A model generated the notes under the pieces. The model was not told where the DNA came from. It searched no databases and worked only from the letters and a program-made list of their open reading frames with translations. From positions 22,321-86,320 of IMG/VR virus record IMGVR_UViG_3300023184_009648: a DNA stretch of 64,000 nt; one strand, given 5' to 3'. Made by a program: the position numbers and the translations under genes. The DNA comes from a virus. Positions 38,904-46,604 of the stretch are shown in pieces; position 1 is the first letter of the stretch; each line of letters opens with the position of its first letter.

Positions 38904-40064
38904 ATGGCTGATGATAATTTCCGTGTAAGAAAACCCGGTCAAGATGTTGGAAACACCAACCCCGATACTTTGGCTCAAGGTGAAACAGTTCGTGCTCAAG
39001 TTAACGAAGGTTCTACTCCACAATTTTCCGAAGGTGGATCACCCAGTGGAACTTTTCCCATGACTGGTCAGGTTCCTCCTGCATTTCAACAAGCTTTAAA
39101 TGCAGCCCGTGCAGCAAGTGATCCCAATTTTCAACCACAACAACCTAAACAAGGTTTTGGGCAAATGAATCCTAGCTCCCAAGTAAATCCCAATGCTCAA
39201 ATGAGCGCAAGTGGAATTGGACAATCTCCTGCCTTTACTAACACTCCTCAAAATCTAAGTTCCTCTGGACATTTACGAGAACTGTTGGAAACTTTAAAGG
39301 GCAACAATGCCACTTATGAAGAGATCCAATTGCCTTCTAAGGGTCGATTTTACAATGGTGAAGACGGACCTGCAGATGGAGTTGTGGCCATTAGGCCTAT
39401 GACCGGCGAAGAAGAACAAATTTTGGCTACGCCTCGTTTTGTCCGCAAAGGACAAGCAATCAATATGATTTTTCAAAAATGTCTTAGGGAAAATTATCGC
39501 CCAGATTCTCTTCTCACTGTAGATAGAACTTATTTGCTTATTTACCTTCGTGGTATTAGTTACAGCACTAATTATGATGTAGAAATCAAATGCCCAGAGT
39601 GTGAAAAGAAATTTAGCACTAGCATCGATTTAAGTTCGCTTTATGTCGAATCTTGTCCTGATGACTATGGTCCTGTGCTTCAAGATGTTTTACCAACTAC
39701 CAAGCTGCCTTTCCGCTATAAACTTTCTACCGGCAAGGACGAACAAGATATTCAAGATCATCGTGATCGTCGAATCAAGGCTTTTGGAGATGCATCGGCT
39801 GATGATACACTTCTTTACCGCACCGCAGTAATGTTAGTTGATATTGATGGCATCAATAACAAAAATGAAATTCAAATTCTGCTCAAGAGTTTGCCAATTA
39901 ACGATGTGGCCTATATTCGCAACTGCATTACTGAACCTCCTTTTGGAGTTGATACGAATATAGAAATTGTCTGCCCAAGTTGTTTACAGGAGTTCGAAAT
40001 GGATTTGCCACTTGAAGCAAATTTTTTCTTCCCTCGGCGGAAGAAGGGCAAGACCCAAGCTTAG
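38904..40064 (+). CDS. gp26: Baseplate hub assembly protein, T4 gp26-like
   Basis: 386 residues, AAGGAG site. The first 125 residues are Pro/Gln/Asn-rich and disordered, an addition absent from T4 gp26 (208 residues). The remainder has the family features: YEEIQLPSKGRFYNGEDGP, RPMTGEEEQIL, CPEC (C230/C233), and a C-terminal CPSC (C357/C360) followed by PLEANFFFPRRK. gp26 is needed to assemble the hub of the tail baseplate. A -1 slippery heptamer at 40019-40025 just before the stop would produce a 449-residue fusion with the gp51-like frame. Confidence 0.8.
   Translation: MADDNFRVRKPGQDVGNTNPDTLAQGETVRAQVNEGSTPQFSEGGSPSGTFPMTGQVPPAFQQALNAARAASDPNFQPQQPKQGFGQMNPSSQVNPNAQMSASGIGQSPAFTNTPQNLSSSGHLRELLETLKGNNATYEEIQLPSKGRFYNGEDGPADGVVAIRPMTGEEEQILATPRFVRKGQAINMIFQKCLRENYRPDSLLTVDRTYLLIYLRGISYSTNYDVEIKCPECEKKFSTSIDLSSLYVESCPDDYGPVLQDVLPTTKLPFRYKLSTGKDEQDIQDHRDRRIKAFGDASADDTLLYRTAVMLVDIDGINNKNEIQILLKSLPINDVAYIRNCITEPPFGVDTNIEIVCPSCLQEFEMDLPLEANFFFPRRKKGKTQA
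40019..40045 (+). promoter_or_regulatory. Candidate -1 ribosomal frameshift site
   Basis: A AAT TTT in the gp26 frame (40019-40025) is an X-XXY-YYZ slippery heptamer. TTCTTCC (40026-40032) and GGAAGAA (40039-40045) form a 7-bp hairpin immediately after it. The spacing is tighter than the usual 5-9 nt, so the hairpin may act differently or be incidental. Confidence 0.55.
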
Positions 40065-40252
40065 CGCTTTGGACATCTCTCGCCGAAGAAATTTTCTTCT
40101 TCCAATATCACATGGGGCTAGAAATGTCTGGCTCCATGAGACTGCCAATTAGGATGAGACGCTGGTTAATCGATAGATTTATTCAGCAAAAAGAAAACGA
40201 AAACAAAGCAATGGAAGCTGAGCAACGAAAAGCCAAATCAAGGTCTAGATAA
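40025..40252 (+). CDS. gp51: gp51-like frameshift extension
   Basis: In the -1 frame relative to gp26, 75 codons are open from the slip site to TAA at 40250-40252. The sequence looks coding: SLALWTSLAEEIFFFQYHMG, MRLPIRMRRWLIDRF, then a charged helix to the end. The pattern of Y/F-x-x-G followed by MPI or LPI and an aromatic-basic helix is what I know from gp51 hub-assembly catalysts. The only ATG in frame (40112) lacks a ribosome site and would give just 46 residues. It ends 3 nt before the next gene. Confidence 0.6.
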   Translation, partial: FLPSAEEGQDPSLALWTSLAEEIFFFQYHMGLEMSGSMRLPIRMRRWLIDRFIQQKENENKAMEAEQRKAKSRSR

Positions 40253-44879: not shown

Positions 44880-45992
44880 TTAGCGATTTATGATAGCACT
44901 AACACTTACCATATCTTGACGCATACGCTCTAAATCAACAAGTAAATTTTCATATTCATTTTTGCTTATAGATTGTTCATTAGCTAACTGCTCGCAATAT
45001 TGACGAATATTATTTACAACATCTATTATTTCATCACATTTTGAATTGACTAAATCAAGTCGCAATTCTTCAGTAGGTAATATCATTTCATTTTTAGGAT
45101 TTTTGGTTATTTGATCATTTTCGTTAAGATCTGATACGACTGTAAAATAAGGTTCATCTTTATTTAGTTTGTGATAAAGACCATCATATTCCCATATTTT
45201 TGTTTCTTTTTTATGAACTTCATAACGCTCAATATCACAGTTTTGAACTTGACTGCCTTGTAATTTAAAAGACCAAATCTGATGATGTGGAATTTCAATT
45301 ATTTTTTGACCACTAGTAAAATTACGAAGAACAGAGCATTCTGTAACAGCTTCTTCCCAAATTGATGGCTCAGAAAAGAAAAATATTTGGCCAAGTTTTT
45401 CTCTAACATCAGCCAACCAAATAGGTCGATGTTGATTGCGAAAAAGCCATAGGTTTCTTTGCCCATTTGGCAATCTTTCGCCAACACCTACAGCCATATG
45501 GCCTTCATTGATAAGACTCCAAACTTGCTTTATTCCATGAAGGCGATTTTCTCCTTCTCCTTCAATAATTCTCAATAAAATTTCTGAATCACAATCTGAT
45601 TTAGTTTCATATTTTTGTTTAAGAGGTCGATATTCACAATCATCAACTCGACCATTATGAATAAGTGCCAATGTTTTATCAGAACTGGTGAAAGGATGAT
45701 TGTTTTTATTGATTGCAGGTTCACCAACTCCTTTAGAAGCTCCACGAGCATGAACTAAAAGTAAATTTAATTTAAAAAATTCTACTGTTTTCCAAACTTC
45801 ATTTTTTATAAATTGCGATGAACGAATTGGCTCTTTGTGATAAATTACAGAACCTTCCGTTCCTGTTTCAGTACCCCAAAAACCTGTAGCATCAATGCCA
45901 CGATTTTCGCTTTTTTCAAACAATTTAGTGATTAGTTGATATGTTATTGCAGGATTTTTAGATTCCCCGACAAAACCAGCTATGCCACAAAT
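44880..45992 (-). CDS. Class II glutamine amidotransferase with AUU start
   Basis: 370 residues if begun at the ATT codon 45992-45990. The frame from there reads Cys-Gly-Ile-Ala-Gly-Phe directly after the initiator, the invariant N-terminal nucleophile motif of class II (Ntn) amidotransferases, followed by ENRGIDATGFWG, LLLVHARGASKG, LALIHNGRVDD and CDSEILLRIIEGE. No ATG, GTG or TTG exists between the in-frame stop (46008-46010) and the Cys. An AGGGGGTG ribosome site lies 4 nt before the ATT. The only other start, a TTG at 45923, would remove the catalytic Cys. The protein may supply ammonia to the phage amidoligase or act as a peptidase-type Ntn enzyme. Confidence 0.75.
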   Translation of the reverse strand: MCGIAGFVGESKNPAITYQLITKLFEKSENRGIDATGFWGTETGTEGSVIYHKEPIRSSQFIKNEVWKTVEFFKLNLLLVHARGASKGVGEPAINKNNHPFTSSDKTLALIHNGRVDDCEYRPLKQKYETKSDCDSEILLRIIEGEGENRLHGIKQVWSLINEGHMAVGVGERLPNGQRNLWLFRNQHRPIWLADVREKLGQIFFFSEPSIWEEAVTECSVLRNFTSGQKIIEIPHHQIWSFKLQGSQVQNCDIERYEVHKKETKIWEYDGLYHKLNKDEPYFTVVSDLNENDQITKNPKNEMILPTEELRLDLVNSKCDEIIDVVNNIRQYCEQLANEQSISKNEYENLLVDLERMRQDMVSVSAIINR

Positions 45993-46007
45993 AAAACACC
46001 CCCTACT

Positions 46008-46604
46008 CTAAAATGCATCCAAACCACCTGTATTACCGCCAAGAGGTGGTGCTGCCAAATCTTGACCTGTACTACCTGTAGGAGGCGTTGCTGTAGGCGT
46101 TGCATCAATATTTTGAGGTTGTTCTGGTGCTTTGCTTGATGCAACATTATTGCTTGAAGCTTCAGGTGAAGATTTCTGAATAGAATTTTGTGCCTTGTTA
46201 TTTTTTTCTGGGCCACCTACACCTTTATTATCATCAGAATTACTTTGAGACTTATCAGTTGGAGTCAATTTACTAATTGGAACTCCTAAATCTTCTACAA
46301 GTTTTTCTATCGTAGTAGAAACAGCCTGTATTGTTCCGGGTAAATCACTTTTCTTATCAATTGCCATCATTAAAGCTACAGCCGTTTTTTGAAGGGTAAC
46401 TAAATGAACTTTATCTTCTTTGGGCCAACTACTGTGTAGCACCCTGCGAATTTGATTTACAATTTGTTGAGAATATTGAGTTAAATCACGAGCTCCCATA
46501 TTTTGGGCGTCATCTCGCAATTCATGAAGAGCAGTAAGTATATCTCCTACTTTTTGAGCTAAGTAGGCCGATTCCTCTTGTAGCAAAAAATGTTTAAATC
46601 TCAT
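46008..46604 (-). CDS. Cargo-like protein with helical domain and disordered tail
   Basis: 198 residues. MRFKHFLLQEE opens it with an L8-x-E10 site. Residues 12-110 are predicted helices (AQKVGDILTALHELRDDAQ; QKTAVALMMAIDKK; VSTTIEKLVEDLG), and the last 85 residues are Ser/Asn/Pro/Gln-rich. No ribosome site; a CATAAATA box lies 4 nt before the ATG, overlapping the pyrG stop codon. So it may be transcribed separately late in infection although it directly follows pyrG. Confidence 0.65.
   Translation of the reverse strand: MRFKHFLLQEESAYLAQKVGDILTALHELRDDAQNMGARDLTQYSQQIVNQIRRVLHSSWPKEDKVHLVTLQKTAVALMMAIDKKSDLPGTIQAVSTTIEKLVEDLGVPISKLTPTDKSQSNSDDNKGVGGPEKNNKAQNSIQKSSPEASSNNVASSKAPEQPQNIDATPTATPPTGSTGQDLAAPPLGGNTGGLDAF

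Follow-up and report, generated by a model that had tools for sequence, protein, structure and literature searches.

A probable AUU start codon behind an extended Shine-Dalgarno sequence in a phage gene for a GlmS-type glutamine amidotransferase

Introduction

Experimentally characterized near-cognate start codons are few in bacteria: those of infC, pcnB, sigR, cvfC1, and ccpN. The AUU start of E. coli pcnB reportedly limits expression. Near-cognate starts are repressed by IF3, and infC starts with ATT in E. coli and with ATC in Streptomyces (PMC5472188). The sigR gene of Streptomyces has a GTC start behind a AGGAGGTG ribosome-binding site (RBS) and is also repressed by IF3 (PMC5472188). The S. 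aureus genes cvfC1 (AUU) and ccpN (AUA) have extended Shine-Dalgarno (SD) sequences, and in poor medium their reporters yield about 10% of what an AUG start gives (PMC13009471).

Among the papers covered by our literature searches, none describes a near-cognate (AUU) start in a phage gene. Here, we describe a family of phage amidotransferase genes in which translation very probably starts at AUU or AUC (collectively AUY) in a considerable number of members. The gene analyzed shares an AUU start with pcnB, for which it reportedly limits expression, but pcnB is a chromosomal single case whereas AUY is a recurrent trait of the phage family. As in infC (AUU, AUC, or AUA start), the putative start is a near-cognate codon against which IF3 discriminates (PMC9410913, PMC5472188, PMC13009471). 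In contrast to infC, the phage gene codes for a metabolic enzyme and not for IF3, so that infC-like autoregulation is not applicable, and its AUY state switches repeatedly on the phylogenetic tree. Like the phage gene, sigR is a non-IF3 gene with a very strong RBS (AGGAGGTG) before a non-canonical start, and it is misannotated in databases (PMC5472188). It differs in using a GUC codon, in coding for a bacterial sigma factor, and in that its IF3 effect is experimental while that on the phage gene is predicted. In cvfC1 and ccpN, too, an extended SD precedes a near-cognate start that is conserved (PMC13009471); these are, however, bacterial chromosomal genes and not a phage gene family.

The reading frame of the amidotransferase gene

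The analyzed stretch of DNA, here called the window, comprises 64,000 nt of IMG/VR record IMGVR_UViG_3300023184_009648, which has a size of 86 kb and is possibly a fragment. No tRNA genes were found in the window. The gene for a class II (Ntn) glutamine amidotransferase is on the minus strand (44880-45992; 370 codons including the AUU start, with the stop codon at 44882-44880). From 46010, the minus strand reads TAG AGT AGG GGG TGT TTT ATT TGT GGC ATA GCT GGT TTT in the amidotransferase frame, which translates as *SRGCFICGIAGF. The initial annotation had reported that the only conventional start is the TTG at 45923, that the frame runs 22 codons further up to a Cys codon preceded by ATT, and that ATG, GTG, and TTG are lacking between this Cys and the in-frame stop. 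On the minus strand, the sequence proved to be exactly as described: the frame is closed by a UAG (46008-46010) five codons 5' of the AUU (45990-45992), and there is no ATG, GTG, or TTG from this UAG to the Cys codon (TGT, 45987-45989). It had also pointed to a sequence 4 nt before the ATT, and this, too, is present: the extended SD AGGGGGTG / AGGGGGUG occupies 46004-45997 and is followed by the spacer UUUU (45993-45996). Its pairing energy with the anti-SD is -13.2 kcal/mol, computed for a slightly narrower upstream slice than in the comparison of homologues below.

The in-frame UAG doubles as the stop codon of a conserved upstream gene for a 198-aa protein (46008-46604, minus strand; stop 15 nt 5' of the AUU), and translational coupling of this gene to the amidotransferase is possible. 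Its function is not assigned; it has no PHROG matches at E<=0.001 and only sub-threshold Pfam matches. The upstream gene of the window shares the frame of the amidotransferase and ends in TAG, as would be expected if reassignment of a stop codon fused the two genes. However, TAG, TGA, and TAA all terminate conserved genes here, and relatives have either an in-frame TGA before the AUU or the upstream gene in another frame. We consider a reassignment exceedingly unlikely; like sequencing error, initiation at GUG with a frameshift, and initiation at UUG 45923, which are treated below, it was tested and rejected.

The gene product and the position of its nucleophile

The protein matches the Pfam domain GATase_6 (E 1.6e-9) and the NCBIfam GlmS profile NF001484 (E 9.5e-13), the latter from profile position 1 onwards. 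This match aligns protein residues 1-170 with profile positions 1-162 of 601, its score being far below the cut-off. The profiles of AsnB and PurF also match from position 1, more weakly than GlmS. In an alignment with 10 relatives, C2, R83 (in HARGASKG), N113-G114, and D135 are invariant; R83, N113-G114, and D135 presumably correspond to residues of the GlmS glutaminase site. The structure predicted with AlphaFold2 (mean pLDDT 66) matches that of the glutaminase domain of GlmS (3ooj, E 1.1e-11; 1xff, E 3.8e-11). The protein thus combines the features of a class II enzyme: a Cys right after the initiator residue, the Arg, Asn-Gly, and Asp residues, and a predicted Ntn-hydrolase fold. It has the fold, the N-terminal Cys, and the catalytic residues in common with the glutaminase domains of GlmS and PurF, but it is devoid of a synthase domain and its C-terminal part is divergent. 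The C-terminal sugar-isomerase (synthase) domains of full GlmS are absent, and the profile match covers the glutaminase part only. The gene product is a GlmS-type class II glutamine amidotransferase.

In four phage records (OL412002.1, OQ938580.1, MH518298.3, and MW202615.1), a related amidotransferase gene directly follows one for a putative amidoligase / carboxylate-amine ligase, a hint that this ligase is the partner enzyme in some phages.

Class II enzymes require an N-terminal Cys, which is freed either by removal of Met or by cleavage of a propeptide. A propeptide is ruled out by the stop codon just upstream and by 37 homologues which have ATG directly before the Cys. With a propeptide excluded and the Cys required at the N-terminus, the start has to be the codon immediately before the Cys, which is AUU. 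From the sequence, we are thus highly confident that translation begins at AUU 45992-45990, with the Cys becoming the N-terminal nucleophile once Met is removed, in line with Ntn amidotransferase chemistry. A gene caller would report the UUG at 45921-45923, the earliest conventional start in the frame. Such a start, 22 codons past the Cys, is rejected because the nucleophile and the strongly conserved motif CGIAGFVGES would be lost; moreover, the conserved SD elements precede the AUU and not this UUG. We regard it as very unlikely.

Start codons of homologues and their retention

A search for related loci returned 16 from IMG/VR; L001/L004, L005, and L009 have ATT before the Cys and the others have ATG. 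A pattern search which allowed any N-T-N codon and did not require an SD added L039 and L041 (ATT), L034 (ATC), and L028 (TTG). With a wider DNA pattern, again SD-free, 73 distinct IMG/VR homologues were collected, and these have ATG (37), ATT (21), ATC (3), GTG (6), or TTG (6). The pattern could have found ATA and CTG, neither of which occurs at the start position among the 73 homologues; it demanded T as the second base and would thus overlook ACG and the like. With ATT or ATC in 24 of 73 homologues collected without an SD criterion, the ATT of the window is more than a product of chance.

For four members (L001, L009, L039, and L041), no other start is available, since an in-frame TGA is located two codons before the ATT and leaves a single sense codon in between. 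In several AUY members, the codon preceding the start is also ATT, so that the exact start is ambiguous there; the window has TTT at this position. A tandem in-frame ATT-ATT (or ATT-ATC) right before the Cys was seen in L048, L058, L065, L067, L084, L097, L098, and the cultured phages FBPa8 and O4.

The clade of the window consists of six ATT members and one ATC member (ATT in L001, L005, L009, L039, and L041; ATC in L082). Proteins of the six ATT members show 47-70% sequence identity, and only 3 of 108 codons for invariant residues share one third base among all six. This holds for none of 27 fourfold degenerate codons and for none of 8 Ile codons, but the start is ATT in 6/6. Retention of ATT while synonymous sites are saturated makes plain inheritance an unlikely reason for this codon.

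In a tree of 25 sequences, all ATT members known at that stage, six in number, group together (92/99). In a tree of 66 sequences, computed with a short search and SH-aLRT support only, 8 switches between AUY and a conventional start are needed. Within AUY clades, AUU and AUC adjoin each other (L039/L082; L034/L045; L182 with L076/L083). A comparison with the start codons of relatives had been proposed initially, with ATG in relatives taken as refutation of the AUU start. Many relatives have ATT or ATC at the homologous codon; ATG relatives also exist, but as a refutation this proved too strict, since the tree shows such relatives scattered between AUY clades. Since relatives with ATG, GTG, and TTG are common, the family can do without regulation via AUY.

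The sequence signature at the start

The anti-SD and the IF3 of the host are assumed to be typical. The mean duplex energy with the anti-SD is -11.6 kcal/mol for AUY homologues (n=24) and -4.5 kcal/mol for AUG homologues (n=34; Mann-Whitney p=1.4e-10, which, like the other p-values given here, is indicative only because homologues are not independent samples). The values are -7.7 for UUG homologues, -8.2 for GUG homologues, and about -5.9 kcal/mol for other genes of two of the phages (that of the window, G000, and that of L009, G004). AUY genes have the SD RGGUG, usually 4 nt 5' of the start codon. GGTG at -8 to -5 (GGTG-N4) occurs in 22/24 AUY homologues versus 0/34 AUG homologues (p=5e-14), and in 2/97 and 3/114 other genes. 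The base at -1 is a pyrimidine in 24/24 AUY members (T in 18, C in 6), including the window, versus 11/34 AUG homologues (p=4e-8), and the base at -2 is mostly T. According to the extended codon-anticodon model, with which work by Esposito from 2003 is reportedly concerned, U at -1/-2 could face A37/A38 of the initiator tRNA; the C at -1 in six AUY members does not fit this idea. AUY and AUG genes do not differ clearly in the folding of the mRNA near the start (mean -6.8 kcal/mol for AUY vs -6.1 for AUG). In the window, a conventional start is impossible, AUU/AUC is conserved, and an extended SD is suitably spaced.

The GTG within this signature is located exactly 7 nt 5' of AUY in 22/24 members, which would also be expected if the GUG initiated translation and a +1 frameshift followed. 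However, this GTG is absent in L182, O4, FBPa8, and 275E43-1 and is displaced in L151, such a product would bury the Cys behind additional residues, and the GGUG needs no other explanation than its extended complementarity to the anti-SD. We thus find initiation at the GUG highly improbable and retain initiation at the AUY codon.

Comparison with other genes of the same genomes

Non-overlapping orthologous genes were surveyed in the genomes of the window (103 genes) and of the L009 phage (123 genes), and only in the amidotransferase does the conserved part reach upstream of any conventional start such that a near-cognate start is called for. One other ORF in this survey extends upstream of conventional starts, and this is explained by a frameshift.

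A mechanical scan was set up for a strong SD and a near-cognate codon followed by an ORF that spans 100 codons or more and has no conventional start early on. The amidotransferase was the only match in the 86-kb genome of the window and also in genome G006. In G004, the scan returned the amidotransferase and one unlikely ORF matched at two codons, and in G010, where the amidotransferase starts with ATG, it returned four unlikely matches.

On the plus strand of the window, the baseplate-hub gene (phrog_150; 38904-40064 and 40016-40249) has the in-frame heptamer A AAT TTT at about 40019-40025. The heptamer is present in the relatives compared and is followed by a -1 frame of 78 codons with 70-74% conservation, the first start codon of which is deep inside. 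This gene very likely undergoes a programmed -1 ribosomal frameshift.

Cultured phages and their annotation

A tblastn search with the protein of the window against cultured phages gave no match at E<=1e-5, and the cultured AUY cases were reached via more distant members of the family. The homologous codon is ATC in the P. aeruginosa phages O4, K4, vB_PaeM_Ty, and IME180, and ATT in P. aeruginosa phage FBPa8 and Vibrio phage 275E43-1. It is TTG in PA11, TC6, and DMTU_1, and ATG in PPAT. The amidotransferases of the P. aeruginosa phages show 89-100% sequence identity over residues 1-175. PA11 (NC_007808.1, TTG), O4 (NC_031274.1, ATC), FBPa8 (ON857932.1, ATT), and PPAT (MZ727333.1, ATG) are 89-99% identical, and their upstream sequences differ. 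In O4, K4, and FBPa8, the preceding codon is also ATT and the exact start codon is thus ambiguous. The AUC start of O4 is predicted to yield the N-terminal product CGLVGVAGAVTFNLEK, with the Cys at the N-terminus.

The occurrence of AUU/AUC at the same codon across independent contigs and cultured phages upholds the AUU initiation proposed in the initial annotation. That annotation had named a sequencing error as the main alternative. ATG might have been read as ATT by sequencing or assembly error, but nothing beyond the rarity of AUU speaks for this, and ATT/ATC is found at the homologous codon in 24 of 73 distinct homologues and in O4, K4, Ty, IME180, FBPa8, and 275E43-1. An error is therefore excluded for practical purposes.

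The GenBank starts of 275E43-1, FBPa8, O4, K4, Ty, and IME180 are 30-111 nt downstream of the start favored here (OX241572.1, ON857932.1, NC_031274.1, MW929175.1, OQ555403.1, and MF788075.1), so that the catalytic Cys is missing from the annotated proteins.

IF3 encoded by phages

IF3 is already known from huge phages (PMC7162821). We searched 62 IMG/VR records and 5 cultured-phage records for this family. The L009 phage (G004, 225 kb), which belongs to the clade of the window, codes for a complete IF3 among phage genes (L099 / L101; G004:C1:217167-217658; TIGR00168, E 6.7e-54). IF3 proteins with 74-80% sequence identity to it occur in L102-L107. Seven further amidotransferase phages have IF3: L084 and L151 with AUU, and L155, L169, L184, L012, and L017 with AUG.

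The IF3 of the L009 phage and those of the two further AUU phages are compatible with a dedicated circuit, in which the phage's own IF3, once made, represses the AUU gene. Among contigs of at least 100 kb, IF3 is present in 3/4 AUY cases and 5/18 others, but this association has a Fisher p=0.12. Moreover, the AUY phages O4, FBPa8, and 275E43-1 are devoid of IF3, and none was found in the 86-kb record of the window, which is possibly a fragment. We consider such a circuit unlikely. Given the cultured AUY phages without IF3 and the Fisher test, phage IF3 is an optional extra which is not required for the AUU start.

Discussion

We propose that fMet-tRNA would initiate at AUU even though the third position is mismatched. 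The 30S complex would be held in place by the strong SD, perhaps aided by U at -1/-2 facing A37/A38 of the initiator tRNA, and removal of Met would leave the Cys as N-terminal nucleophile. Because IF3 destabilizes AUU/AUC complexes, output would be a fraction of the AUG level and would depend on the IF3:30S ratio. By analogy, the AUU gene probably has a low and IF3-sensitive output in vivo, and the response to IF3 levels suggested in the initial annotation is reasonable on these biochemical grounds. As a whole, this account, in which weak initiation of a GlmS-type amidotransferase at an AUU with an extended SD is policed by IF3, appears likely to us, and we hold it with good confidence. A weak SD before an AUG would suffice for low output as such. 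The gene instead combines a strong, near-consensus SD with a weak codon, from which we infer selection on the codon-recognition step policed by IF3. Selection may have favored enzyme synthesis that is limited or conditional, as for infC, pcnB, sigR, and ccpN.

Whether AUU was selected specifically as a condition-responsive control is a closer question, and we regard this as quite possible though short of probable. Alternatively, AUU may be merely a neutral or set-point means to achieve low enzyme output, with no signal via IF3. The SD strengthens as the start weakens (-4.5 for AUG, about -8 for UUG/GUG, and -11.6 kcal/mol for AUY), which could keep output constant, and near-identical proteins of Paundecimvirus-type phages use ATC, TTG, or ATG. 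Against this, AUG is always one base away, yet AUY is retained while synonymous sites saturate, and AUU and AUC adjoin inside AUY clades. A mere set point is a serious possibility, but we would not call it probable. For a condition-responsive control, phages may repeatedly have placed the amidotransferase under an IF3-gated AUU/AUC with an extended SD, its synthesis tracking the initiation machinery of host or phage during infection; we put this forward tentatively.

Annotation limited to ATG, GTG, and TTG removes the catalytic cysteine from proteins in public records. The related cultured P. aeruginosa phages, with ATC, ATT, TTG, or ATG at one codon, represent a natural experiment on the purpose of such codons. 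About one-third of the sampled phage enzyme family is on a near-cognate start; the tree shows several changes of state, and the sequence signature is unusually clear. Our analysis suggests that phages have repeatedly imposed on this amidotransferase a weak, tightly policed start signal, one that standard gene callers overlook.
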